The translations under genes and the position numbers were made by a program. From a virus: 64,000 nt of DNA. The notes under the pieces are model-generated. The model was not told where the DNA came from. It saw only the letters and a program-made list of their open reading frames with translations, and did no database searches. Where the stretch lies: positions 1 through 64,000 of IMG/VR virus record IMGVR_UViG_3300048837_000549. The stretch is one strand, 5' to 3'. Shown here one piece after another: positions 2,681 to 58,165 of this stretch; the first letter of the stretch is position 1; every line of letters starts with the position of its first letter.

Positions 2681-3181
2681 ATGGCACAAGTAGCTCACCA
2701 GTATAGATTAACAGATTCAGTAGAATATGACTCATTACAAATAGCAGGGGTAACTCTAACAAAGGATTGGTTCTCGTTTGTAAATGTAAAAGAAGAATTA
2801 CAAGCTTTTTTAAAATCAACTACAAATACAGAAGGTATGGTTGATTATCAAAAAGTAAATGTAGAATCAAAAGAAGTTCTCTATAAGACAATACCTAATC
2901 CTTTAGATATGCCAATATTTGAAAGAAATGTTCTATTTTCAATGATAAGATCAGAACTCTGTGAAATATGTAAAGAATATGGAATTGTTACTACAAATAA
3001 AACAAATCAATTTCTAGTAAAAGAGATTATCGAGAAACAAGAAAATATTGAAGCAGCTAAAATAGAACAGTCTAAAGAAATTATACCTTCTGAAACTACT
3101 AATAAAATAGAAGATAATACTGTAGCTGTGGAACCAGAAGTAAAAGCTAAAAGTGTATTTGATATATTGAAAAAGAAATAG
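2681..3181 (+). CDS. hypothetical protein, likely virion or assembly related, 166 aa
   Basis: First gene after a perfect late-type motif. The N-terminal ~110 residues look globular (contains VTLTKDWFSFVNVKEELQ). The last ~50 are a charged, low-complexity linker rich in Glu and Lys ending in SVFDILKKK. I do not recognise a family. Position at the head of a unit containing structural and tagged genes suggests a late product. Confidence 0.7.
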   Translation: MAQVAHQYRLTDSVEYDSLQIAGVTLTKDWFSFVNVKEELQAFLKSTTNTEGMVDYQKVNVESKEVLYKTIPNPLDMPIFERNVLFSMIRSELCEICKEYGIVTTNKTNQFLVKEIIEKQENIEAAKIEQSKEIIPSETTNKIEDNTVAVEPEVKAKSVFDILKKK

Positions 3182-3191
3182 GTGATTAAAA

Positions 3192-3482
3192 ATGAAAAGA
3201 TACGTTAGATTTGAAGAAAGCTTATCAGATAAAGAAAAAAAATATTTAGATAATCTGAGAGCAAAAATGAAGAAGCAACTTGATGGATCTACTACTGATT
3301 TCGCTATGGATTTTATTCATAATTATTGCGTGAAAAATAAAAGGAAATTAAGATCTCTAGGAGATGATTTAAGAGACGATGTACAAATAGCTTATAATTA
3401 TCTAGCTTATGGCCTTGATAGATCCTTTATAGATAGGGGGAATGTTTTTAATCAAGATGGGTTTTTTAACTTAAAGAAATAG
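3192..3482 (+). CDS. capsid-targeted small protein, MKRYVRFEES tag
   Basis: A 96-residue protein whose first ten residues fit the tag shared by about 27 proteins of this window. By analogy with T4 internal proteins (MKTYQEFIAE) I infer packaging into the prohead and cleavage after the Glu. The rest is charged and mostly helical and not recognised. The GGTGATTAAAAATG leader gives a good ribosome site. Confidence 0.75.
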   Translation: MKRYVRFEESLSDKEKKYLDNLRAKMKKQLDGSTTDFAMDFIHNYCVKNKRKLRSLGDDLRDDVQIAYNYLAYGLDRSFIDRGNVFNQDGFFNLKK

Positions 3483-3492
3483 AGGCAATAAT

Positions 3493-3885
3493 ATGGTACA
3501 AGATTTTTTAGAAACCTTTGTATATGAATCAGGAATAAAAGCGTCTATAATCAAACAAGTTTATAAAGATGCCTATAATGAATCTAAATTTCTTAATAAA
3601 GAGAATGATCTATCTTTTATTAAAGAGACTATGGAGACTATTCTTGATATAACAGAAGGTTCTAAAACTTGTGCAGAAAAATTCATTCTAAGTAAATATA
3701 TAAGTTTCGATAAATATGTAGAAGACTTAATAGATTGTGATTTAACAGAAGATTTAATGAGTACTAGTTTTTCTCCTTCAGTAAAACCAGAAGTAGGGCC
3801 AGATGCAAAAGTATTAGATGTGGGACCTAGCGATGAAGATACCGAAGAGAATAAAGAAAATAAGAAACAGCAAGAGTTGATATAA
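3493..3885 (+). CDS. hypothetical protein, 130 aa, acidic tail
   Basis: Follows the tagged gene by 10 nt in the same unit. The first ~95 residues look helical; the C-terminus is acidic and low-complexity (Asp/Glu/Pro then NKENKKQQELI). It stops one base before the next ATG, implying translational coupling. No family recognised; a head or connector accessory role is only inferred from position. Confidence 0.65.
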   Translation: MVQDFLETFVYESGIKASIIKQVYKDAYNESKFLNKENDLSFIKETMETILDITEGSKTCAEKFILSKYISFDKYVEDLIDCDLTEDLMSTSFSPSVKPEVGPDAKVLDVGPSDEDTEENKENKKQQELI

Positions 3886-3886
3886 G

Positions 3887-4909
3887 ATGTCGGAAAGATA
3901 TTACCAAACAGATAGTCACTACCCTTATGCTATTTACGCAATAGTAGAGAGAGTCCTTGTATATTTTGCAGAGATAATATATCCTGACGAAACTTCAACT
4001 GATGCCCGTAAACGTATAATAATGGCAAACTTTGACGATGATGCCGCCTCTATAAGAAAAGGTATAGATGCGTTTAAAAATTCCAATGGAACTTTCCCTT
4101 GTACTTTTTATAATATCGGTGACGATGAACCTGTGATGGAAAGATCAAATTTACAAAGAAATGGTAATTTCTACTCAGAATTAGTTCAATCATATTTAAG
4201 ATACATACCTATGAAACTTACATTCCCTATGGTAACTTATTATACAACTCCTTTTGACTTTTGGAGAGGTATGACTATGTTTGCTGAAGATGAAGCTGAC
4301 ATGACAAGACTTGATGTTCCTGTTACCATCAATGGAGTATTAACTTATTTTGTAATTGATCTTGAATACACAACTGAAAGAGGTAGTCTAGCCTGGGATA
4401 TAGAGCAGCAATTTGGAGTAGGTAAATTATACCCTGTAATTCACACAGTGGATATCAAAGGAGCATATATTACTTTAAATACAGAAAGAGATGAACTAAC
4501 TCAAGCTATAAAAACAGGGAAACTTGTATATCATGTCGATGACATAATTTTTAAGCTTTCTGAATTAGAAAGTAATAAATTAGTTTCAACTACGCATTCT
4601 CCCGATAATCCTATTGTAGTTTCTTCTACTCCAATAAATAATGCAACAAGTGTTTTAAGAAATTCAAATATAGTTCTTACCTTTAATGTAGCTATGAATG
4701 AAAATTCAGTAATATCAAATATGGATATAGTACCTGCTATTGATTGTGATATGAGTTTTGATATTACATCTAAGATTCTTACTATAAATCCAAGAGATGA
4801 TTTAGCAAGTTCTACTCTATACAATATACTAATAAACACGAATGCAAAATCAGGAGATTTACAAAATTTAGAATCCGAATATAATTTAACATTTACAACA
4901 GAGGTATAA
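3887..4909 (+). CDS. virion structural protein with C-terminal Ig-like (Big_5-type) domain
   Basis: A 340-residue protein. Residues ~1-235 are an unrecognised domain (YYQTDSHYPYAIYAIVERV...). Residues ~245-340 resemble bacterial Ig-like Big_5/SbsA repeats: P-x(6)-S-x-N-I-x-LTFN at the start, LTINPRDDLASSTLYNILI in the middle and a final LTFTTEV strand. Such domains decorate many phage virion proteins. I infer a neck, tail or head-surface component. A tagged gene starts 3 nt after its stop. Confidence 0.65.
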   Translation: MSERYYQTDSHYPYAIYAIVERVLVYFAEIIYPDETSTDARKRIIMANFDDDAASIRKGIDAFKNSNGTFPCTFYNIGDDEPVMERSNLQRNGNFYSELVQSYLRYIPMKLTFPMVTYYTTPFDFWRGMTMFAEDEADMTRLDVPVTINGVLTYFVIDLEYTTERGSLAWDIEQQFGVGKLYPVIHTVDIKGAYITLNTERDELTQAIKTGKLVYHVDDIIFKLSELESNKLVSTTHSPDNPIVVSSTPINNATSVLRNSNIVLTFNVAMNENSVISNMDIVPAIDCDMSFDITSKILTINPRDDLASSTLYNILINTNAKSGDLQNLESEYNLTFTTEV

Positions 4910-37433: not shown

Positions 37434-40400
37434 ATGAAGTATAACGAATCATTTTTTGATTTAACAAATTCAATAGATAGACAAACATTTATTTCTGATA
37501 AAGAAAAAATTATAGACTATTTTCATCTTTATTGGTTATCTTTCCTTATATTTAAAAAACACTTTCCGAATTCACCTAAACTCTCAAAGTTTATGAAGAC
37601 AATGTCTAAAACACAAATAAAAAATATAGATGATGGGAACGATCTTGCATCAATAACTAAATATGCTAATGACTTAGGGTTACTAAGTGGTACCTCAGTT
37701 AATGCTTTAACCAAATTTCTTTTTCTGATGAAGACCTCAAAAGATTTACAAATAGATGAAAGTTTAGTTCGTAAATGGTTTGTGTCCTCCTCAAATATAC
37801 ACCTTCCTGAAAATACATTTTTAAAACAAGCTAGAAAAGATTTTGTAGCTGGTGCTACATTACTTGATATCTACCCATTGGTTTTAAAATATTTTAAAGC
37901 TAAGAAATCAGAATTACAAATAACACAAATATATCATTTTCTAACTTATAGTGCTTTTACTGTAAATATTCTACAAGCAAAAGGAGTTATAGCAAATACA
38001 CCATCTCCTGCAGTAGTATCTCAAGTGGCTACAGACGCTCGCACTGATAGTGTTGTACCTGTGCAAACTACTACTCAATCAGTCGTCTCAAATAAAATCG
38101 ATATAAGTAAAATAGAAGCTTATATCGATGAGATAAAAATAAAGGGCATGAAGGAAGATAAAGAATTATTAGATGATAGAAATTATGTTATATCTACTGT
38201 TTTATATTCTGGTTCAGAGGGTTGGTTAGGGAGACTCGATCCCAATTTATCTCTTGAGAATATTAATGCATTAAAACCTTACATTTTTGATGAATACTTA
38301 GAGTTAATAAAGCTTCCACTAAAATCTTTAGAATCCAGAATAAATTTACAGGCGTTTCTAAATTTCATGTTCGCTTTTTTAATAAAGAGTAAAGAGCTTG
38401 CGACCATTGATAAAAAGATTTCCTTATTCAAGCCTATTATAAAAAATGAAAAATTTTATTTAAAACTGGATGTAGAAGATTTCAATTATCTCTTTACAAC
38501 TCAGTCTACGTGCGGTGATCTCATTTTTAATTTTCTAGTTAAAGAAAAAGAAGTTTTAATTGCTTTACTTGAAGCCGGAAGTTCCCTCACAGATAACACA
38601 ACTTTAATTGTTAAAAATTATGGAAGTGAAACTCCTGATGATTTTATTGAAAAATTGGATGCTCGTTTCAAAATGTTTTCTACATCAAAATCTAGTATTC
38701 TAATAAATAAGTTGATTGATAAATATGATAGTATAGAAATAGTTGCTTTGTTACAGACAGTAATAAAAAAGAAGCAACGTTATTCACCACGATATTCAAA
38801 ATCTACCCGCAGATTAAACTTAGATTTAATATTCTATATATTATTTCAATATTATGAAAATAAGAAAATTTCTTTTGGGGACGTAGTACGCCTTATTGTA
38901 ACGGAAGGAGCGTATAAGGATCGTGTTACTGCTTATATTAGATGGAAATACAAAGAATTATTTGATATATCTAAATTATCTGATGAGGAAATTATTCAGT
39001 CCTATTTAGATTTAGGGGATAAAGATTTAAATGAAGTTCACAAGGAATTAGTTTCTATCAAAAGAGAACATCTATTTCTACCTTATATACTTCAGGATAG
39101 TTATGCTTATAGAATACTATCATATCCTTTCGAGGAATCGTCGAGGTATAACTTTGGAATAGATGCATTCAAAGCGAATAAGAATTATAAAGAGTTAATA
39201 AGAACTTATGTTACTAATGCAAAAAACTTAAAAGACTTAGAATATATGCTCAAACAATCTGAGGATAAAGACTTCTTCTCATTTCTATTAGATTGTTTTC
39301 CAGATGAAAACAGTAAAATAAAATTTTTTACATCTCTTGTAGAAATAAATTTGTCCCTAACGTCTATGTATCTCTATAAGATATACTTCAATCTCCCCAC
39401 CAAACAAATATTTGATATATGGGTAGATATAAATAATGGTAGAATTGGTTCGAAACGACTAACTACTTCTTATATTTCATCGGTTCGTAATAAAGAAGAT
39501 GATCTATATAAAAAAGAATTCTATACTTTATTATTCGACTATATGTGTCTAAACAACTTTACCAGTTTTGATTCAGACTATGCGGTTCAGGGAAATATTA
39601 AGAATTATGTAATGGAGAACAATGAGTCCCTTAAAAAATTAAGGCTTGAATGGTTACAGAAGTATAAAGATAGTACCAACCCAGATATACGTAACTCTAC
39701 TAAAATAACATGGATTTTTAATGAAAAATATCTGGAAGTAAATAAAGACACCCTCTGGGATAGTTTTGGTATAGGGGTATTCAGTTATTTCAAAGCATCT
39801 TTTACTCTTACTATTTTTCTAAAATACTTATTAGATGAAAAAAAGTATTCTGATGTAATAGATAATATAGATTTCTTTTTTAGAAACTTCGCCACAATTA
39901 AAATATTCCAACTTTTATTTTTTGAATACCCTGATTTTTTTAATAGTTATTTCGATATAATACTTGATTCTATAGAAAAAAATTCAAAGCGTGAGATAAC
40001 TAATATACTTGATGATACATTAGAAGAAATAATTAAGAGTGATAAAAAAGAACTAATTCCTACGTTACTAAAGATATTGAATAAGGATGTATGGTTGAAG
40101 AGTTTAATTGCTGAGATCACGGATGCTAAATTGTATCTAGAATCTATTTCACTAAGTTTTCTGGCACTACTCGAAAAATATCAAATAAAGGAAATAGACT
40201 CACTACTTTTACGTATACAAGAAGAAGATGAGAAAGTATTTAAAAAAATGGTATACATAATGAAAAGATCTTTTTTATCGGAGAGTGTCTATTCTGATTT
40301 ACTCTTTTCAGAAAATAATCCTCTTCCTCTTGAGGATATAGCTTTTACAAGACAGAATATTAAAAATTTTCTAAAAGTAAATGATGAAAATTTACAATTG

Positions 40401-41171
40401 AGACTACCTAGTAAACAATTGAAAAAAGGTGAATCATTTCTAGTATACATAAATAATCTTAAGGAGATATCTAAAGATGTCGTTAAAACGATTCAAGCTT
40501 CTCTCCCTGATCCAAAAGTTGTTGAAGTACCTAAAACAGAACAAGAATTAAAGGATACATCGTTTGAAATAAATTTAAAATACAATACTCAGAAACATGG
40601 TAATGTAGGACTTAAGATTATTAAAGAATGGGATTATGTAACATCTCAAGAGCAATTAGATGCTATTCAAGAATTTCTAGGAGCTAGACCAGAATCAGAA
40701 GTAGCTGTTCCTGCTTTCCATAGCTGTGGTACCTTGGCGGCTAACATGATATTAAGATATTGGTTTTCACTAAGTAGTAAAGTAGAGAAGGTCGCTAAAG
40801 GGTTAGGAGCTGGTATTTATTTTGCTCCTGTTATAGAAAAATCTCTACAATATCTAGGAGACACAGGAATGAGTAGGTCACACGGAACAAGAGGATATGT
40901 ATTAGACTGTACTCTATATCTAGGTAACCATGCTGGTAGGGGGGATGATGGAGATTATAGAGATGCAGCAGGAACTGGTTGGGTGAGTGCAGAATATGTG
41001 ATAAGAGATCCATGGAAGCAATGTAAAATAAACAAAGTATATTACGCAGAAATAGCACCAATAAGAGAATTTAAAAATGAATTAAAAGCTCGAGGATACG
41101 ATGAAGACCATATAACTGGAGTTGATAGGTTTTTAACATCAAAAGAAAAAGGAACTAAATATGACAAATAA
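37434..41171 (+). CDS. giant capsid-targeted PARP-type ADP-ribosyltransferase, 1245 aa
   Basis: The largest product here. MKYNESFFDLTNS resembles the tag and the start of T4 Alt. Residues ~20-1030 are long, mostly helical, repeat-like and unrecognised. The last ~170 read as a PARP catalytic domain: FHSCGTLAANMIL (His1096), GAGIYFAPVIEKSLQYL (Tyr1129) and SAEYVIRD followed by INKVYYAEI (Glu1187), a complete H-Y-E triad, which is the form that can chain-extend. T4 Alt, the packaged and injected ART that modifies host RNA polymerase, is R-S-E type and shorter. The target here is unknown. Transfer with DNA is inferred from the tag-like start and the late motif. Confidence 0.8.
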   Translation: MKYNESFFDLTNSIDRQTFISDKEKIIDYFHLYWLSFLIFKKHFPNSPKLSKFMKTMSKTQIKNIDDGNDLASITKYANDLGLLSGTSVNALTKFLFLMKTSKDLQIDESLVRKWFVSSSNIHLPENTFLKQARKDFVAGATLLDIYPLVLKYFKAKKSELQITQIYHFLTYSAFTVNILQAKGVIANTPSPAVVSQVATDARTDSVVPVQTTTQSVVSNKIDISKIEAYIDEIKIKGMKEDKELLDDRNYVISTVLYSGSEGWLGRLDPNLSLENINALKPYIFDEYLELIKLPLKSLESRINLQAFLNFMFAFLIKSKELATIDKKISLFKPIIKNEKFYLKLDVEDFNYLFTTQSTCGDLIFNFLVKEKEVLIALLEAGSSLTDNTTLIVKNYGSETPDDFIEKLDARFKMFSTSKSSILINKLIDKYDSIEIVALLQTVIKKKQRYSPRYSKSTRRLNLDLIFYILFQYYENKKISFGDVVRLIVTEGAYKDRVTAYIRWKYKELFDISKLSDEEIIQSYLDLGDKDLNEVHKELVSIKREHLFLPYILQDSYAYRILSYPFEESSRYNFGIDAFKANKNYKELIRTYVTNAKNLKDLEYMLKQSEDKDFFSFLLDCFPDENSKIKFFTSLVEINLSLTSMYLYKIYFNLPTKQIFDIWVDINNGRIGSKRLTTSYISSVRNKEDDLYKKEFYTLLFDYMCLNNFTSFDSDYAVQGNIKNYVMENNESLKKLRLEWLQKYKDSTNPDIRNSTKITWIFNEKYLEVNKDTLWDSFGIGVFSYFKASFTLTIFLKYLLDEKKYSDVIDNIDFFFRNFATIKIFQLLFFEYPDFFNSYFDIILDSIEKNSKREITNILDDTLEEIIKSDKKELIPTLLKILNKDVWLKSLIAEITDAKLYLESISLSFLALLEKYQIKEIDSLLLRIQEEDEKVFKKMVYIMKRSFLSESVYSDLLFSENNPLPLEDIAFTRQNIKNFLKVNDENLQLRLPSKQLKKGESFLVYINNLKEISKDVVKTIQASLPDPKVVEVPKTEQELKDTSFEINLKYNTQKHGNVGLKIIKEWDYVTSQEQLDAIQEFLGARPESEVAVPAFHSCGTLAANMILRYWFSLSSKVEKVAKGLGAGIYFAPVIEKSLQYLGDTGMSRSHGTRGYVLDCTLYLGNHAGRGDDGDYRDAAGTGWVSAEYVIRDPWKQCKINKVYYAEIAPIREFKNELKARGYDEDHITGVDRFLTSKEKGTKYDK

Positions 41172-43544: not shown

Positions 43545-45527
43545 ATGAATAAAAAGATTTCATTAGAAGAAAGAGCAAAACAAAAAGGAAAGACACTTCT
43601 TATTGAAAGTATTTCTTATTTGCCTAATATAGAAGATGTTAAAGTAGAAACTAAACTTATTGAAGCTATAACTGGTAAGCAACATGAATGTAGAGGTGTT
43701 CTTAAAAATGTTCCTGTTACTAGATTTACCGAGAATGCTAATGGAAGAATTTATCCTAAAGAGTTATGGGCTGAAGTAGAAAAAAGAAAAACTTTTGAGG
43801 GAGCGGATTGTCTAGCAGATCACGCTGCTGAGGGAGATGGTAGCGTTCTTGATACGGTGGGTATTTGGAAAAACTTCAAAGTCGGTGAAGATATCGCCAC
43901 CGCTGATTTATATTGTATAGGTGCTGCTGGAAATCTTTTGTTAGAGAAAGCCAGAGCCGGTGGAAAAGTTGGTTTCTCAACTGTAGCTTTCGGTACATTG
44001 AGTGAATCCGATAACAAAACTGTTATGACAGAAGATTTCGAGTTTGAAAATTGCGACTGGGTCCGCAAGCCAAGTCAGAATGTATTTGCTACACAAGAAA
44101 ATCTAGAAGAATCTATTAAAGAAAGTGTAGAAATAAAAAAAGAAAATAAAATTATAGAAAATAATTTTACTAATAATTATAAAGAAGAAAAAACGGTAGA
44201 GGTAAAACAGATGGATAAATTTTCAGAATCAACATTTAAAAATCTTATACGTGCTACCATTAAGGAAGCGAATGCTAATGAAAACTACGTTGAGGCTATA
44301 GAAGAGCTTAAAGAAGTTTCTAAGACAATTCCTTCTGAAATGGTTGAACAAATTGCACAAGTAGACACAGCAATTACACAGATTCAAAGTAAACTACATG
44401 AGCAAAAAGAACAAGCACAAAAAGAGCTAAAGGAATCAAAAGAAACTCTTGAAAGCATGACTAAAAAGTATGAAGCCTCATGTAATACTATAAAAGTTTT
44501 AAAAGAGAATCTAGAAAAAGCTTCAAAAATTGTTGAAAAAGTAAATGATAAAGATACTGTAAAAACAATTAAACTTATGTCAGAAGACCTTGATCAATTT
44601 GAATCTGATAGAAAGCTAATGGAATCAGACATTAAAAAATTTATTGAATCTATTGAAGCTCTTAAAGAAGATGTTAAGCTTATGTCTGAAGATATTAAAT
44701 GTTTTGAAGAAGACACAATACTTAGAGATAAAGATATTGCAAGGTTCAAAGAAGAACGAGGTAAAATGAAAAATAAAAATAGTAAACTCTCAAAACAACT
44801 TAAAGTAGCAGAACGCCATATTAAAAGACTTGAGAAAACCTTGAAAGAAGAATTTGATTATGAATTTGATGATGAAATTGTAGATGACGAGTTTGTAGAT
44901 GACACTATGATTATAGATGATGAGTTTGTAGACGAATCTGATATTGATGATGTATTTGCGGATGAAGATGACTTCTACATGGAATCAGAAGATGAAGACG
45001 AAGAAGATGAAATGGAAGAAGATTCCGATGACGCTGATGAAATTTCAGATGGTGCTCTTGAAGAATCTGACGATGAAGATGAAGACGAAGAAGATGAAGA
45101 CGAATTAGAAGAGTCTGATGACGATGATGAAGACGAAGAAGATGAAGAACTTGAAGAAGAAGAAGACGACGAAGAAGAGTCTGACGACGACAAAATGGCT
45201 GCTGTAAGAGATGCTAAAAAAGAAGCTCTTAGACGTAAGAAAAGACTTCAGGTTAAAAAATTAGAAGCTAAAAAAGCATCTAAGAAAAAATCAGTTAAAG
45301 AGTCTAAAGCACCAGTAAAGGAAGTTGTTGAATATTACAAAGCAATTTCTAAAACTAAACCAGCTATTAGAGATATTAAAGAAGCAGTTCTTAAATCAAG
45401 ATCACTTCTAGAAGCTGTTAAGAAAGTATCTATGTTTGAGCATAAGTTTGGTAATGATGTTCACAAACTAAAAGAATCAGCTCAGAGTAATAAACAAGAG
45501 TTTACAAAATATAAGTTCACTGTTTAA
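43545..45527 (+). CDS. prohead protease (T4 gp21/S77-like) fused to scaffold
   Basis: 660 residues. Residues ~45-185 are the protease: GVLKNVPVTRFTENANGRIY, then DHAAEG (His93) and VGFSTVAFG (Ser145), the catalytic pair placed as in T4 gp21. Residues ~223-425 are a long coiled-coil (EELKEVSKTIPSEMVEQIAQ; many K/E heptads), ~425-550 are a nearly pure Asp/Glu tract and the end is basic. It would assemble the head core, then cut scaffold, capsid and tagged cargo after Glu. T4 encodes protease and scaffold separately; here they share one ORF, with an apparent internal start at 44211. Confidence 0.85.
   Translation: MNKKISLEERAKQKGKTLLIESISYLPNIEDVKVETKLIEAITGKQHECRGVLKNVPVTRFTENANGRIYPKELWAEVEKRKTFEGADCLADHAAEGDGSVLDTVGIWKNFKVGEDIATADLYCIGAAGNLLLEKARAGGKVGFSTVAFGTLSESDNKTVMTEDFEFENCDWVRKPSQNVFATQENLEESIKESVEIKKENKIIENNFTNNYKEEKTVEVKQMDKFSESTFKNLIRATIKEANANENYVEAIEELKEVSKTIPSEMVEQIAQVDTAITQIQSKLHEQKEQAQKELKESKETLESMTKKYEASCNTIKVLKENLEKASKIVEKVNDKDTVKTIKLMSEDLDQFESDRKLMESDIKKFIESIEALKEDVKLMSEDIKCFEEDTILRDKDIARFKEERGKMKNKNSKLSKQLKVAERHIKRLEKTLKEEFDYEFDDEIVDDEFVDDTMIIDDEFVDESDIDDVFADEDDFYMESEDEDEEDEMEEDSDDADEISDGALEESDDEDEDEEDEDELEESDDDDEDEEDEELEEEEDDEEESDDDKMAAVRDAKKEALRRKKRLQVKKLEAKKASKKKSVKESKAPVKEVVEYYKAISKTKPAIRDIKEAVLKSRSLLEAVKKVSMFEHKFGNDVHKLKESAQSNKQEFTKYKFTV
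44168..44177 (+). promoter_or_regulatory. late promoter motif inside the protease ORF
   Basis: ATTTTACTAATAATTATAAAG is a perfect TACTAATAAT 43 bp before an in-frame ATG at 44211, the same spacing as at dedicated promoters. It encodes Thr-Asn-Asn in the linker between protease and scaffold, a part that is free to vary. Confidence 0.6.
44211..45527 (+). CDS. nested scaffold protein (inferred internal start)
   Basis: In-frame internal ATG of the protease-scaffold gene, with AGAGGTAAAACAGATG as ribosome site and its own late motif upstream. Gives MDKFSESTFKNLIRATIKEA..., a 438-residue coiled-coil and acidic scaffold without the protease. This mirrors lambda C/Nu3, where a capsid protease gene contains a nested scaffold start. 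Expression is inferred; scaffold function follows from composition. Confidence 0.55.
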   Translation: MDKFSESTFKNLIRATIKEANANENYVEAIEELKEVSKTIPSEMVEQIAQVDTAITQIQSKLHEQKEQAQKELKESKETLESMTKKYEASCNTIKVLKENLEKASKIVEKVNDKDTVKTIKLMSEDLDQFESDRKLMESDIKKFIESIEALKEDVKLMSEDIKCFEEDTILRDKDIARFKEERGKMKNKNSKLSKQLKVAERHIKRLEKTLKEEFDYEFDDEIVDDEFVDDTMIIDDEFVDESDIDDVFADEDDFYMESEDEDEEDEMEEDSDDADEISDGALEESDDEDEDEEDEDELEESDDDDEDEEDEELEEEEDDEEESDDDKMAAVRDAKKEALRRKKRLQVKKLEAKKASKKKSVKESKAPVKEVVEYYKAISKTKPAIRDIKEAVLKSRSLLEAVKKVSMFEHKFGNDVHKLKESAQSNKQEFTKYKFTV

Positions 45528-45541
45528 TTAGCTTAGTAAAT

Positions 45542-45566
45542 CTCCTCTAGAAATGGAGGGGGTTTT
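45542..45566 (+). terminator. weak intrinsic terminator
   Basis: CTCCTC (45542-45547) pairs with GAGGGG (45556-45561, one U-G) around TAGAAATG, followed by GTTTTAAAA. Lies between the scaffold stop and the two late motifs of the capsid gene. Confidence 0.5.
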
Positions 45567-45578
45567 AAAAAGTATTCT

Positions 45579-45628
45579 TACTAATAATAAATGTAAGAAT
45601 ATTTTTTAAAATTATTTTTACTAATAAT
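45579..45628 (+). promoter_or_regulatory. tandem late promoters for the major capsid gene
   Basis: Two perfect TACTAATAAT copies exactly 40 bp apart (45579-45588 and 45619-45628), with near-repeated flanks (TTACTAATAATAAATG and TTACTAATAATAAAATG). They lie 237 and 197 bp before the capsid ATG, so the mRNA has a long leader (about 45640-45815). Doubling fits the need for very high capsid expression. The leader contains only a 16-codon ORF (45632-45682) without a ribosome site. Confidence 0.7.
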
Positions 45629-45815
45629 AAAATGAAACAAATAGGAAAGTATAGAGACTTGATTCATAAAGTAAGAAAGTGAGCTACAAGAAGCCAACCA
45701 AATTATCCATTAGGGTTTGAAAAAATAGACATTATTATATAGACTTAAAAAACTTTATAAAGATTTTTCAGTATAGATTCAAAAAATTAAATTTACAAAA
45801 AGGTGTAAATACAAT

Positions 45816-47264
45816 ATGAAACACGGAAGACAAAAAATGAGCGAGTCTCAAATGAAAGAGATAGTTCAACAAGAATGGGCATCTAAATCTAGAATCGGAG
45901 AAGCATGTGTAGCAAAATGGTCTAAGATGGATTTAGTTGGAAAAGAAATGCTTGAAAAATACGCTGAGAATCCTGCTAAGATTCGTAAAGCAGCTATTAT
46001 GCTTGAAAATCAAGAAAAAGTTCTAAAACAGATTATGAAAGAGAATCTTTATTCTACTACTTTTGGAACATCTGTAAAACCTGAGCATATGCTTAAAGCA
46101 ATATTCCTTGGAGCTGCTAACTCAAAGAGGGGAGATATATTCACAGAATATCCACTTACTTCTACTGATGACGCATTATTCTACATTCAATCAGTTTATG
46201 AGAGCACTGTTCGTGGAGCAACTGCAGGAGCTAGATCTTATGAGAGCATGTCTCCTTACTACTCTGGAGAACAATATTTTGGCTCAGTAGGAACAGGTAA
46301 CGGAGCACTTACAGCATTCGTTTCTGCGCCTATGGCTTATCTACCACTTATTCCTTTTAAGACTGTAATCACTTTAGGTGGAGCTCAAATAGCTGTTGAT
46401 AATGGTTCTGGAGTTCTTGTAGGTTCACTTCTTAATCCAGCACTTACTAACACAGTTAACTATGCTACAGGTGTTATTACTCTTAATTTTCTTGTAGCAC
46501 CTGCTAATTTAGCTCCTATTACTTGTGTATACAATTGGAACTCAGAAGATGCAACTAACTATACCAATTATGGTACTATGAGCCTTGAACTTGTGAAAGC
46601 TAGATTCAACGCACGTCCTATGCCTCTTGGATATAGAATTTCAGATATGACTCAGATTATGTTTGAGACAACTGGTCTTGGAGATGCTAAAGACTATATG
46701 GCACAAGCAGTTGGTCAAGAACATGCAAGAGCAAAAGATTATAGAGCGATTGCACAAGCAAGACGTGTAGCACTTGGAAACGCAGTAGCAACATTTGATA
46801 CAGACTTCGCAGCAGCTGGTGAAATCAGTTATAAGTCACACGCTCAAAGAGTACTTACAGAGATTGAAAGAGTTGGAGCAGTTATATATGACGATCTAAA
46901 GAGAGGTGGTATTACTGATATCGTTGCAGGAGCAAAAGCAACCGCATATCTTAAAAATCATGATCTTTGGAAAGACGTTTCAGGAGATGCTAAGAATGGA
47001 GTTTATCAAGCTGGTACACTTTCAGACATGAAAGTATTTACTTGTCCAGCAGATGCAGCTCTTGTAGCAACTAACGAAATGCTTCTTGTATATAAGAACC
47101 CACAAGAGTCCATGGATGTAAGTATATTATTCGGAACTCTTGCAGAAATCGACGCTAGTTTAAGATATCCAAATTTTGTAACTGAGGGAAATTCCTGTGT
47201 AATTGAGGACAGCCGTGTCGTGAACGGAAAATTCATTCGGTTAATGCAACTACAGTCTCTTTAA
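45816..47264 (+). CDS. major capsid protein (T4 gp23-like, HK97 fold)
   Basis: 482 residues, close to T4 gp23 (521). N-terminal ~70 residues are a helical, charged delta-like region (MKEIVQQEWASKSRIGEACV) then LLTSTDDAL-type core: YPLTSTDDALFYIQSVYEST, FGSVGTGNGALTAFVSAP, and LELVKARFNARPMPLGYRIS. A Glu near residues 71-74 (LKQIMKEN) is a plausible prohead-protease site. It forms the icosahedral shell. Long leader and tandem promoters suggest the strongest late transcription. Confidence 0.85.
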   Translation: MKHGRQKMSESQMKEIVQQEWASKSRIGEACVAKWSKMDLVGKEMLEKYAENPAKIRKAAIMLENQEKVLKQIMKENLYSTTFGTSVKPEHMLKAIFLGAANSKRGDIFTEYPLTSTDDALFYIQSVYESTVRGATAGARSYESMSPYYSGEQYFGSVGTGNGALTAFVSAPMAYLPLIPFKTVITLGGAQIAVDNGSGVLVGSLLNPALTNTVNYATGVITLNFLVAPANLAPITCVYNWNSEDATNYTNYGTMSLELVKARFNARPMPLGYRISDMTQIMFETTGLGDAKDYMAQAVGQEHARAKDYRAIAQARRVALGNAVATFDTDFAAAGEISYKSHAQRVLTEIERVGAVIYDDLKRGGITDIVAGAKATAYLKNHDLWKDVSGDAKNGVYQAGTLSDMKVFTCPADAALVATNEMLLVYKNPQESMDVSILFGTLAEIDASLRYPNFVTEGNSCVIEDSRVVNGKFIRLMQLQSL

Positions 47265-48988: not shown

Positions 48989-49621
48989 TTATACTGTAAA
49001 CTCATATCCTATTGAGTTATTAAATTCAACATATCTCTTTTGAAGCTTAACAATCCAGTAAGACAAATTTGCCATACGTTTTTCTCCGAGTTCTACTACT
49101 ATATCGCTTTTCTTCATACCATCTGCTAATAGTTGAAATAATCTTTTTTCTTTTTCTGGTAGAGTTTCTTCAAACTTGTCTCTATACATATTAAATATGA
49201 TACTCCCTTCTGGAGATTCTGTTTGTCCTTGTTCAATTTTATTCAAACCCTCTTCCTGTTGTGTTACATATTCTTCTGTAATAGAATCTTTACCTTTTAT
49301 ATATTTTCTATACTCTGCAATAAAATGACTTGAGAGATAATTGCTAAAAGTACTTCCAAATGAATAACGTTCAAGATCATTTACTTTATTTAAGTCAACA
49401 TAGTCTAGAGCCTGTATCATCTGGAAGTAACAATCCTGCATATTATCTTCCATTGGTTGTAAGTAACTATACTTAGAAGAATATTTTTTACAAAGTGGGG
49501 TATACTTTTTGTATAAGTGAGTTTCAATATCTTGCTTAGTTCTCCAATGTGAATTATTCTTATAAATCTCAATTACTTCTACATCTGTTTTTGCGGAGTA
49601 AATAGAATTGACTTTTTTCAT
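48989..49621 (-). CDS. sigma-like late transcription factor (T4 gp55-like)
   Basis: 210 residues. LCKKYSSKYSYLQPMEDNMQ then DCYFQMIQALDYVDLNK resembles sigma-70 region 2.1-2.4 (core binding and -10 contact). The C-terminal part LPEKEKRLFQLLADGMKKSD then KRMANLSYWIVKLQKRY could be a region-4-like helix-turn-helix. Size is close to T4 gp55 (185). It is the natural candidate to direct host RNA polymerase to the TACTAATAAT motif. Early strand location fits. Confidence 0.7.
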   Translation of the reverse strand: MKKVNSIYSAKTDVEVIEIYKNNSHWRTKQDIETHLYKKYTPLCKKYSSKYSYLQPMEDNMQDCYFQMIQALDYVDLNKVNDLERYSFGSTFSNYLSSHFIAEYRKYIKGKDSITEEYVTQQEEGLNKIEQGQTESPEGSIIFNMYRDKFEETLPEKEKRLFQLLADGMKKSDIVVELGEKRMANLSYWIVKLQKRYVEFNNSIGYEFTV

Positions 49622-52606: not shown

Positions 52607-53794
52607 TTAGTTCAATTCTACCAAATATTTTATTGTACACTGTTCAGATTTATAAATCATTTGTTCATTGTTTATGAGATCAGCCCCTCCTTGAGCAAAT
52701 ACAGAATCATACTCCCCTAATTCTTTTAACTTTTTAAAACTTAATTGATACATCCATGATTCATGTTTTTTTATTCTATATTCCCTTCCAGTATTAACTT
52801 CATATAATGCCATAAATCCCTGTTTAGAATTTCCTTTTGCCCAATAGCTTCCTGATAGACTTGTATAACCCAATGCTTTCTTACATTTATCCGCCATATA
52901 GATTGCATCACCAAACATTGATCCAGTATGCACTGCTCCAGTAGGTCTTATCAATAAACTCGTTTTCAATATGTTTAACCAGTTTTCATTTCTACTACCA
53001 TGCCACATTAACTTAGTCCAGTGTTTAACTGATTCTTTTCTCTGCTTTTCAAATTTATCTCTTGATACTTTATGAGTAACTTCAAATAGATTTTTAAATT
53101 TACCTGATTCAGTTCCCATCATTTCTTTTACTTTATCAATTTCTGTTTTATCTGTTACTTTTGAAATTTTAACTCCAAGTATATCCTCTAAAGTTTTATC
53201 TGAATCTGTTGATGCCGAATTGATACTTACCTGTCCTTTCATTATGTCTATTGCATCCTGTTCTCTTTCAAGTATTGCTTTTCCTTTTGCCTTATCTCCA
53301 GTTCCGTTAAGAATAAAGTCTTGAACTTTTTTCATTTTTCTTGGTATAACTGTATAGAGTTCTGTAAGCTTATTATCAATTGAGGGATTAGATATTGTTT
53401 TCTTCTTTAGCATATCTGCTATTTCATTTAGAATCTCTTGAGCTTTATCTATTTGAGCCTCAGTAACCTGTTCTGCTGAAACTGTATAATTCTCTAATAT
53501 AGAAGCTTTTGAGTAGCTCTGTAAATCAGAGAGTAATTTCATTATAGTAGAATCTGTTATGTCTTTAAGAGTAGTAGTTGTAATAGTAGATTTAAGACTT
53601 GTAATGTCTCTATATCCTTTTTTAATTTTCTCAGCATACTTCTTATCCCATTGTGACATTGGATAACTTACAGTAATTTCAGTAAGTCCAACTCTACCAT
53701 ATTTAACTATGAAGTTATTTCCATCTTCTGTCATTCTGTAGAACTTATTATTATTCTCTGCTGTACACATTATCAATTCAACTTGCTTTGCCAT
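52607..53794 (-). CDS. WGR-domain poly(ADP-ribose) polymerase-like protein (PARP)
   Basis: 395 residues with full PARP layout. A WGR domain: residues ~1-62 (KFYRMTEDGNNFIVKYGRVG and YAEKIKKGYRDI), a helical regulatory domain (~80-165) and the catalytic domain (~230-395): MWHGSRNENWLNIL (His265), GDAIYMADKCKKALGY (Tyr299) and NNEQMIYKSEQCTIKYLVEL (Glu377). This is the complete H-Y-E triad of chain-forming PARPs. In eukaryotic PARP1-3 WGR senses DNA breaks. I infer a DNA-activated ADP-ribosylating enzyme made early. SD AAGGAGAAACACCATG. No tag. Confidence 0.85.
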   Translation of the reverse strand: MAKQVELIMCTAENNNKFYRMTEDGNNFIVKYGRVGLTEITVSYPMSQWDKKYAEKIKKGYRDITSLKSTITTTTLKDITDSTIMKLLSDLQSYSKASILENYTVSAEQVTEAQIDKAQEILNEIADMLKKKTISNPSIDNKLTELYTVIPRKMKKVQDFILNGTGDKAKGKAILEREQDAIDIMKGQVSINSASTDSDKTLEDILGVKISKVTDKTEIDKVKEMMGTESGKFKNLFEVTHKVSRDKFEKQRKESVKHWTKLMWHGSRNENWLNILKTSLLIRPTGAVHTGSMFGDAIYMADKCKKALGYTSLSGSYWAKGNSKQGFMALYEVNTGREYRIKKHESWMYQLSFKKLKELGEYDSVFAQGGADLINNEQMIYKSEQCTIKYLVELN

Positions 53795-55957: not shown

Positions 55958-57979
55958 ATGTCTAATTATCAAAAAGTGAAAGAGTCAATTTCAGATAGAA
56001 CAAATGAGTTATATAATGAACTATCTAAAGAAGAAAAAGAACAAGTATATCAATTATTTTTTGATGAAGATACTAGACAAGAGCTAAAGAACAAACTCGA
56101 AAATATTGTCTTCTATAAAAAGCCGCCAACTATTGAAGAATTCCTGGACCCAGAAAACAGATGGCTACCATATACAGTTATACAAGGAATATTTCCGCAC
56201 ATTAAAAAAGAACTTATAGAAATATTAGACCCCTCTAAAGTAACTACAAAAGTAGTGGAGTACGGGGCTACTCGACTTGGTAAAACTTTCATGGCAAGAT
56301 TAATGATTATGTACACGATAGTATATATCCATCATCTTCGAGAACCTGCCATGTACTATGGGCTAAGCTCACTTACTCGTCTTTGTATTTATTTCATTTC
56401 ATTTAAGTTTGATAAAACTCGACAGCTTTACCTTGAACCTATGTTTGAGATAATGAGACAATCAGAAAGATTCCAACAAGTAAAGTTCGAAGAACAAGTA
56501 AGACAAAAACAAGCTAAATTAGGAAGAGACGTTATTGTATGGAGTAAGGCAGCAACCACTGGTGAAATTACTTTAGCTTCTGGACTTCAGCTTCAGCTAG
56601 GTAATAGTGATGCCATTTCAGCAATTGGATCTGACTTACTTCAATGTTATATTTCAGAGATTGGTTTTTTTATTGAGCAAGCAGGAACTACTGAAGAAAA
56701 GATATTCGAACTTTATACAAATATTAGCACAAGGATATATTCTACAGTAAGAGAAAACTTTTTAGCTTTTGTATATCTTGACACTTCAGCTAATAATGCT
56801 GAATCAATGATTGAAAAACATATTATAAATGATTTACAATTTGATGAAAAAACTCACTTTAAATGGCAGTCACAGTGGGATGCAAGACCAGATTTATTTC
56901 CTATATGGCGAGAGACAGGAGAAACATTTAAAGTAGTAGTGGGTAATGGAACAATCAATCCATGTATAGTTACTGAAGACTCTCAATTACTAAATGTTCC
57001 TAAGGACTTAATTATTGATGTTCCTATAGATGCTTATAAGTTTTTTAAACTTAATCTAATAAAAGAAATAAAAGATATAGCGGGTAGACCTACTCAATCC
57101 GAGAATAAATTTATTCAAGATATTCAACTCATCAATGATATATTTAATAATCCTTTTCTTAGTAATGTAGAGGGGGCTATTGTAGCAGACTCTTCTTATA
57201 TGCCAGAAAATTTATTATGGAATCAAATAAAACATTTATTCTTTCATAAAAATCATATAGATCACTATATGATAAATAGAGCACCAAGAGAACCTAGATT
57301 TATAGGTCTTGACACATCATATTCAATACATGGAGATGCTACTGGAATTACTATACTTCATAAAGAATTCGATATAGAGAAAAAAGAAACTGTCTATGTA
57401 GTAGATATGAGTTGTGCTATTATAGGAAAAGAAAAAGGAATTAACTTAGAAGCTGTTCCTTACTTACTTATAGATTTAATTACTCAAGCGTCTCTTCCTA
57501 TTTATGCTCTATATATAGATACATTTCAAAGTGAATCTAGTAAGCAATTCCTCGAAAGAAATAGAGTTCAGGTAATTAAACAATCTGTTGATAGAGATGT
57601 AACTGCATATCAAGTGTTATTAACGGCTCTTTCTAATGGACTAGTAAAAGCAGGAAGAAATATATTCTTAAGAAACAATTTACAGTGTCTTATGGTAGTT
57701 AAATCAGATTCAGGAAAAGATAAAATAGATCACCCCATTGGTAAAGTTACAAATAATTATAATGGGGATTGGGAGAATTCACAATCAGGTTTATTTGCAA
57801 AAGACGTAAGTGACTCTTTGGCTAATGCATTATATGGAGCATTTGTTTCTAATATACATCCTATAACAATTATGCAAGAAGAAGATAGAAGATTTTCTAA
57901 AGAAGAAGTTGATATAGCTATTATGAAAAATAACGCCTACCAGAATCTAATTAAAGCAAGACCTCATTTATCAATATAA
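55958..57979 (+). CDS. terminase large subunit
   Basis: 673 residues. Walker A GATRLGKT (103-110), then arginine-rich ATPase region and YISEIGFF as Walker B-like. The nuclease half carries FIGLDTSYSIHGDATGITIL, ALYIDTFQSESSKQF and KDVSDSLANALYGA, the three-acid RNase H-like metal site. It pumps DNA into the prohead through the portal and cuts the concatemer. Length exceeds T4 gp17 (610). No late-type motif was found upstream. Confidence 0.9.
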   Translation: MSNYQKVKESISDRTNELYNELSKEEKEQVYQLFFDEDTRQELKNKLENIVFYKKPPTIEEFLDPENRWLPYTVIQGIFPHIKKELIEILDPSKVTTKVVEYGATRLGKTFMARLMIMYTIVYIHHLREPAMYYGLSSLTRLCIYFISFKFDKTRQLYLEPMFEIMRQSERFQQVKFEEQVRQKQAKLGRDVIVWSKAATTGEITLASGLQLQLGNSDAISAIGSDLLQCYISEIGFFIEQAGTTEEKIFELYTNISTRIYSTVRENFLAFVYLDTSANNAESMIEKHIINDLQFDEKTHFKWQSQWDARPDLFPIWRETGETFKVVVGNGTINPCIVTEDSQLLNVPKDLIIDVPIDAYKFFKLNLIKEIKDIAGRPTQSENKFIQDIQLINDIFNNPFLSNVEGAIVADSSYMPENLLWNQIKHLFFHKNHIDHYMINRAPREPRFIGLDTSYSIHGDATGITILHKEFDIEKKETVYVVDMSCAIIGKEKGINLEAVPYLLIDLITQASLPIYALYIDTFQSESSKQFLERNRVQVIKQSVDRDVTAYQVLLTALSNGLVKAGRNIFLRNNLQCLMVVKSDSGKDKIDHPIGKVTNNYNGDWENSQSGLFAKDVSDSLANALYGAFVSNIHPITIMQEEDRRFSKEEVDIAIMKNNAYQNLIKARPHLSI

Positions 57980-58023
57980 TTATTAGTAATTTAATTTTCT
58001 ATTATTTTATTACTAATAATTAT
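57976..58023 (+). terminator. 15-bp inverted repeat after terminase
   Basis: ATAATTATTAGTAAT (57976-57990) and ATTACTAATAATTAT (58009-58023) are perfect reverse complements with an 18-nt loop. Each arm is also a late-motif copy (minus and plus strand), so this could be a terminator, a paired promoter or both. Confidence 0.55.
58011..58020 (+). promoter_or_regulatory. late-type motif TACTAATAAT
   Basis: Context TTTATTACTAATAATTATG. It nearly touches the ATG at 58022, so a transcript starting from it would more plausibly serve the gene at 58169. Confidence 0.5.
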
Positions 58024-58165
58024 GAAAGCATTTACTTTAAAATTAAATAGGAAAGAAGAGATACTTGCTAAGTTTTCTCGTACACTCGTGCAACAAAAAC
58101 CTAAAGTTCAAAGTAATAAGAAACAATATAAAAGAGAAAAGTTTAACTATAGAGAAGAGGTATAA
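58022..58165 (+). CDS. small basic protein, 47 aa (uncertain)
   Basis: MKAFTLKLNRKEEILAKFSR ... KREKFNYREEV, strongly basic. No ribosome site, and the ATG overlaps the late motif, so it may be only a leader. Ends 3 nt before the next gene. Confidence 0.35.
   Translation: MKAFTLKLNRKEEILAKFSRTLVQQKPKVQSNKKQYKREKFNYREEV

Follow-up and report, generated by a model that had tools for sequence, protein, structure and literature searches.

A fused prohead protease-scaffold gene with a probable nested scaffold start in a large uncultured phage

INTRODUCTION

How could a phage that reads its prohead protease and its scaffold in one frame make far more scaffold than protease? The question is raised by a gene within a 64,000-nucleotide stretch of viral DNA (hereafter the window), which belongs to a virus record of 77,111 bases and about 70% A+T. 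The source phage is large and uncultured, and a contractile tail sheath gene is present in the larger record. An initial annotation had proposed that the gene contains a scaffold driven separately from inside it, after the manner of lambda C/Nu3, within a T4-like head module. Our analysis makes a nested, separately driven scaffold probable: one frame would give two proteins, a protease-scaffold fusion and the scaffold alone.

RESULTS

The fused gene and its two parts

The gene lies directly 5' of a gp23-like capsid gene and comprises the following features.

43545..45527, + strand: 660-aa ORF for the prohead protease-scaffold fusion (match to phrog_207, E 3.6e-11, a head maturation protease)
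43545..44210, + strand: protease domain and linker, residues 1-222 (catalytic-residue alignment, hhalign)
44151..44159, + strand: codons for I203-I-E205
44211..45527, + strand: nested in-frame ORF, 438 aa, coiled coil and acidic putative scaffold

Judged by profile and residue alignments, residues 1-180 are a T4-type prohead protease (gp21, PHROG 207). An hhalign comparison with T4 gp21 and 10 others gave 97.6% (E 4.5e-12), and H93, S145 and D171, invariant in all lineages examined, align with the invariant H85, S140 and D168 of T4 gp21. The only notable family match is to the T4-type phrog_207, not to a lambda C-type protease. Structure prediction of the domain from five sequences returned a poor model (mean pLDDT 37.8). 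Between the protease and the C-terminal part, I203 and E205 are invariant in all lineages although the linker around them has diverged. The cleavage consensus of T4 gp21 is L/I-x-E; I203-x-E205 fits this rule and self-cleavage there is possible, an argument that is weak on its own.

The protease is followed by a coiled coil, called by eye and from a weak SMC match; an acidic stretch comes next, and the C-terminus is conserved. From its position and composition this part is a putative scaffold. It lies, as gp22-type scaffolds do, between the protease and the major capsid gene, with a late-promoter-like site of its own; hhalign of the coiled-coil part against gp22-type scaffold profiles gave a probability of 0.4%, which does not show homology to T4 gp22. 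A second internal start, at M408, was considered and rejected: its ribosome-like sequence (-6.5) is not accompanied by a motif, and the Met is absent in locus L017.

Elsewhere in the window, a 1245-aa ORF upstream of the head genes (37434-41171) has as its sole match phrog_18612, of unknown function, over residues 972-1215; its C-terminus looks ADP-ribosyltransferase-like by eye, and a Pfam search of it found no match. A phage-encoded PARP with a catalytic domain (Pfam E 9.7e-22) and a WGR domain is found at 52607-53794 (- strand).

A promoter-like motif in the phage group

Comparisons were made across four records representing separate lineages (G000, 77 kb; G002, 31 kb; G005, 71 kb; G006, 156 kb). 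Protein identity to the window in the four lineages compared is 48-69%, and codon identity between lineages at identical residues is only 59-66%; the lineages share ancestry and are thus correlated rather than independent observations. A tblastn search of cultured phages with the whole 660-aa protein found no match.

The sequence TACTAATAA occurs 23, 10, 11 and 33 times in G000, G002, G005 and G006, respectively, and an ORF ATG follows 33 of these 77 copies (10, 4, 6 and 13) at a distance of 30-60 nt. The reversed motif is found 6, 2, 5 and 8 times, and none of these 21 copies is so placed. Most motif-led genes have the motif 32-50 nt before their ATG, and the consensus of 38 upstream reference sites is TTTACTAATAATTAAAA. 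The placement is like that of the T4 late promoter TATAAATA, which lies 35-36 nt before genes 18, 20, 22 and 24. TACTAATAA is thus a promoter-like motif of the phage group. A candidate for its reader is encoded in the window:

48989..49621, - strand: phage sigma-70-family factor (phrog_1740; TIGR02937 E 1.2e-7, below the curated cut-off)

A scan for sigma-70 sites found promoter-like sequences only at chance level. Copies of the motif are also seen within the 3' ends of ORFs, at 4827 and 16600 in the window, 82-86 nt before the next gene, and similarly placed copies occur in other lineages (L022 10750, L032 12518 and L032 1257). Since such copies recur across lineages, promoters inside upstream genes seem to be usual here. 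At 57974-58025, 3' of the terminase gene, two divergent copies stand about 23 nt apart, and similar divergent pairs occur in G006 (115,472/115,504 and 139,099/139,131) and G004 (2,672/2,704).

Motif, ribosome site and ATG at the joint

The initial annotation reported a late motif, a ribosome site and an in-frame ATG exactly at the joint of protease and coiled coil, and all three are present. The ATG, at 44211, is codon 223 of the 660-codon ORF; upstream of it are:

44168..44182, + strand: internal late-promoter-like motif TACTAATAATTATAA, starting 43 nt before ATG 44211
44198..44203, + strand: internal ribosome site AGAGGT, 7 nt upstream of the ATG (duplex -7.1 kcal/mol)

The sequence at 44168 is TTTTACTAATAATTATAAA, with the core TACTAATAA. 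The spacing of 43 nt had been likened to that of real genes, rightly so in view of the usual 32-50 nt, and at the internal site of the four lineages it is 40-49 nt. The motif had further been called perfect. This holds for the window, whose copy exceeds the median score of the reference sites, but less so for the relatives: the L017 copy, with one mismatch in the core (TACTAATAT), has a lower score than any of the 38 reference sites, and that of L019 has a low-scoring flank and sits in the lowest 5%. The internal motif is the top-scoring deep intragenic site in G000, G002 and G006.

The ribosome site is more uniform. Its predicted anti-SD binding is -6.9 to -7.1 kcal/mol in all four lineages, a strength reached by only about 2-3% of internal in-frame ATGs, and it exceeds that of the full-length start in the window (-7.1 versus -4.5 at the annotated start) and in L019 (-7.1 versus -3.9). 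Only 28% of linker positions are invariant between lineages, and there are several indels; nevertheless the longest invariant DNA block in this diverged stretch is GAGGTAAAA, which contains the ribosome site, followed by TACTAATA, and the ATG is kept too.

Could these elements be there by chance, or for the sake of the protein, in a simple fusion whose scaffold is released only by cleavage? AT-rich coding DNA does hit the motif easily (in three lineages the per-gene P of TACTAATAA is 0.15-0.29), and the conserved T-N residues could be kept for protein reasons. There are also fused protease-scaffold genes, in SP-15, LIS04 and pT24, that have no clear nested start. Against this, the composite of motif, ribosome site and ATG is found inside only four of the 436 ORFs, 293 kb of coding DNA in all, that the four records contain, once per lineage and always in frame at the protease/coiled-coil joint of the protease gene; at its ninth base the search pattern accepted either A or T, a choice made after seeing L017. 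By synonymous codon shuffling, the chance of such a site is 2-7% per gene. Moreover, among the 43 Glu columns common to the four lineages, the only one that is GAG throughout is the one forming the ribosome site. We therefore regard the simple fusion as very improbable.

Even less credit can be given to the view that the linker elements are unused relics of a former separate gene-22-like gene, kept through recent ancestry. It would account for an arrangement that matches T4 genes 21/22 minus the stop, but at a codon identity of 59-66%, and with linker substitutions and indels surrounding the retained blocks, it is barely credible.

Transcript units and the capsid gene

Downstream of the putative scaffold are the following features.

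45538..45567, + strand: terminator-like hairpin (-14.8 kcal/mol, z -3.3) with U tract, 3' of the scaffold end
45579..45634, + strand: two more motif copies (45579 and 45619), 237 and 197 nt upstream of the capsid ATG
45816..47264, + strand: major capsid protein, gp23-like, 482 aa (phrog_1014, phrog_138; PDB Gp23 9ukm, E 7e-5)

The hairpin was revealed by folding, a simple terminator scan having missed it, and a counterpart is present 3' of the stop codon in every lineage. The motif copies at 45579 and 45619 are the probable promoters of the capsid gene, ahead of which L006, L017 and L019 also have motif copies of their own. The capsid leader (45640-45815) has about 170 nt conserved in L015, L016 and L019, with a weak consensus fold, and a search of Rfam with it found no family; the leader of T4 gene 23 is also longer, 142 nt. 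In L019, about 800 bases between the protease and capsid genes (within 3135-4206) are absent from its near twin L015, and the opposite strand there appears, by eye, to encode an HNH-like endonuclease.

At the other end of the fused gene, the full-length ATG of the window has no motif within 120 nt and that of L019 none just upstream, whereas in L006 and L017 a motif precedes this ATG by 48 nt. In the window, then, the fusion would come from upstream read-through, and in both the window and L019 the internal motif would favour the scaffold.

DISCUSSION

How the two proteins would be made and used

In the reading that we favour, a longer transcript would be translated into the 660-aa protease-scaffold protein, a minor component. 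From a putative late promoter at 44168, a scaffold-only mRNA of about 1.4 kb would run to the hairpin near 45565, and ribosomes starting on it at 44211 would make the 438-aa scaffold alone, the major component. The fusion would co-assemble through its scaffold part, so that only a limited number of protease copies would enter the prohead, and after assembly the protease would free itself, perhaps at I-I-E205, and then degrade the scaffold. A plain fusion fixes the ratio of protease to scaffold at one to one, so that a nested promoter and start would restore the scaffold excess. This suggests a way in which the two proteins can be fused and the scaffold still be made far in excess of the protease.

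A variant of this reading does without the promoter: the ribosome site and ATG would be used on the full-length mRNA, as in lambda and Mu, and the motif would be no working promoter. Indeed the block with the ribosome site and ATG is the better conserved (GAGGTAAAA being invariant), whereas the L017 and L019 copies of the motif have decayed; other fused protease-scaffold genes carry a ribosome site and in-frame ATG at the joint, and Mu-like phages use such internal starts (PMC4378225). But TACTAATA is invariant as well and ranks second in length among the invariant linker blocks of the four lineages, standing at the distance from the ATG seen in ordinary motif-led genes, and the window copy scores well among the reference sites. 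We consider nesting by translation alone unlikely, and the nested scaffold with its own promoter remains our preferred explanation.

Joining gene 21/22-like frames with the start signals retained would yield the arrangement seen here. Separate and fused forms of protease and scaffold are both widespread, and evolution may have run in either direction.

Comparison with known systems

In T4 the order protease, scaffold, major capsid gene is the same, the protease is of the same family, and gene 22 likewise has its own late promoter, located where the protease gene ends: TATAAATA overlaps the stop of gene 21 (GCG TTA TAA ATA), 35 nt before the gene 22 ATG. The differences are that T4 has two ORFs and two proteins, whereas here the protease is fused to the scaffold in one frame, and that its late motif is TATAAATA rather than TACTAATAA. 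The T4 prohead core contains about 580 copies of gp22 and 55 of gp21 (PMC9958956). T4 also offers an instance of internal transcription with in-frame translation, annotated in its record for gene 17 (gp17' and gp17''), although this gene encodes terminase and not a scaffold.

The nested arrangement itself is already known from herpesviruses. UL26/UL26.5 of HSV-1 and UL80/UL80.5 of HCMV combine a protease-scaffold fusion with an in-frame, C-coterminal product that is scaffold only. In HCMV an alternative scaffold-only transcript, UL80.5, is thought to supply the scaffold excess (PMC9732275); in HSV-1, which has UL26.5, the fusion supplies only about 10% of the scaffold (PMC12474303). These viruses belong to another realm and use other transcription machinery; the likeness is one of arrangement, and no sequence relation is claimed.

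The likeness to lambda C/Nu3, put forward in the initial annotation, is partial. In lambda C/Nu3 translation of the scaffold begins inside the protease gene, in the same frame. The same is true of Mu and Mu-like phages (PMC4378225). An in-frame internal start giving a C-terminal scaffold is thus common to these phages and to the gene described here, where it is read from sequence and conservation. However, the nested product of lambda and Mu is attributed to internal initiation of translation, with no promoter of its own, whereas here there is a conserved promoter motif, and the protease, unlike that of lambda, is of the T4 gp21 type. The nested, separately driven scaffold has gained good support from its conservation in four lineages, as has the T4-like head module from the profile matches of the protease and of the gp23-like capsid protein. 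Yet instead of a T4 protease merged with a lambda strategy, the locus looks like T4 genes 21 and 22 joined in one frame with the start signals of gene 22 kept. T4 genes 21/22 and herpesvirus UL26/UL26.5 are better, closer models than lambda C/Nu3. A single comparison would then link the separate genes of T4, the nesting of lambda and Mu, and the nested transcripts of herpesviruses.

Protease and scaffold-like part also share one ORF in other large phages (RHph_TM21B, EP_H11, Ab1-TPeters, phiLo, pT24, SP-15, LIS04 and phiXF1), and in most of the cases read the capsid gene adjoins this ORF; by contrast with our reading, these genes are annotated as single products and their records list no nested scaffold. 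In a small sample inspected by hand for translation signals, five of nine cultured fused genes have a ribosome site and in-frame ATG near the joint: EP_H11 (L046; M204, -8.9), RHph_TM21B (L048; M207, -6.6), phiLo (L053; M216, -6.5), phiXF1 (L045; M188, -5.8) and Ab1-TPeters (L049; M218, -5.6). The comparison rate, that is, the share of internal ATGs with a ribosome site in the same loci, is mostly 0-14%, and 28% in phiLo. EP_H11, Ab1-TPeters and RHph_TM21B are related, and the Met is kept in their diverged linker; when viral contigs were searched for relatives of the EP_H11 and RHph proteins, none came up. For nested starts in other fused protease-scaffold genes these data are suggestive only. 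They bear on a broader proposal with two parts, whose joint chances seem to us about even: that this fusion of a gp21-like with a gp22-like part, with its internal late promoter and start, is the phage counterpart of UL26/UL26.5 in a T4-type lineage, and that nested scaffold starts are widespread and unannotated in the fused genes of large phages. On this proposal, many large-phage genomes in which only a 'head maturation protease' is annotated should also encode a scaffold protein that has escaped annotation, and a sequence test for it is at hand.
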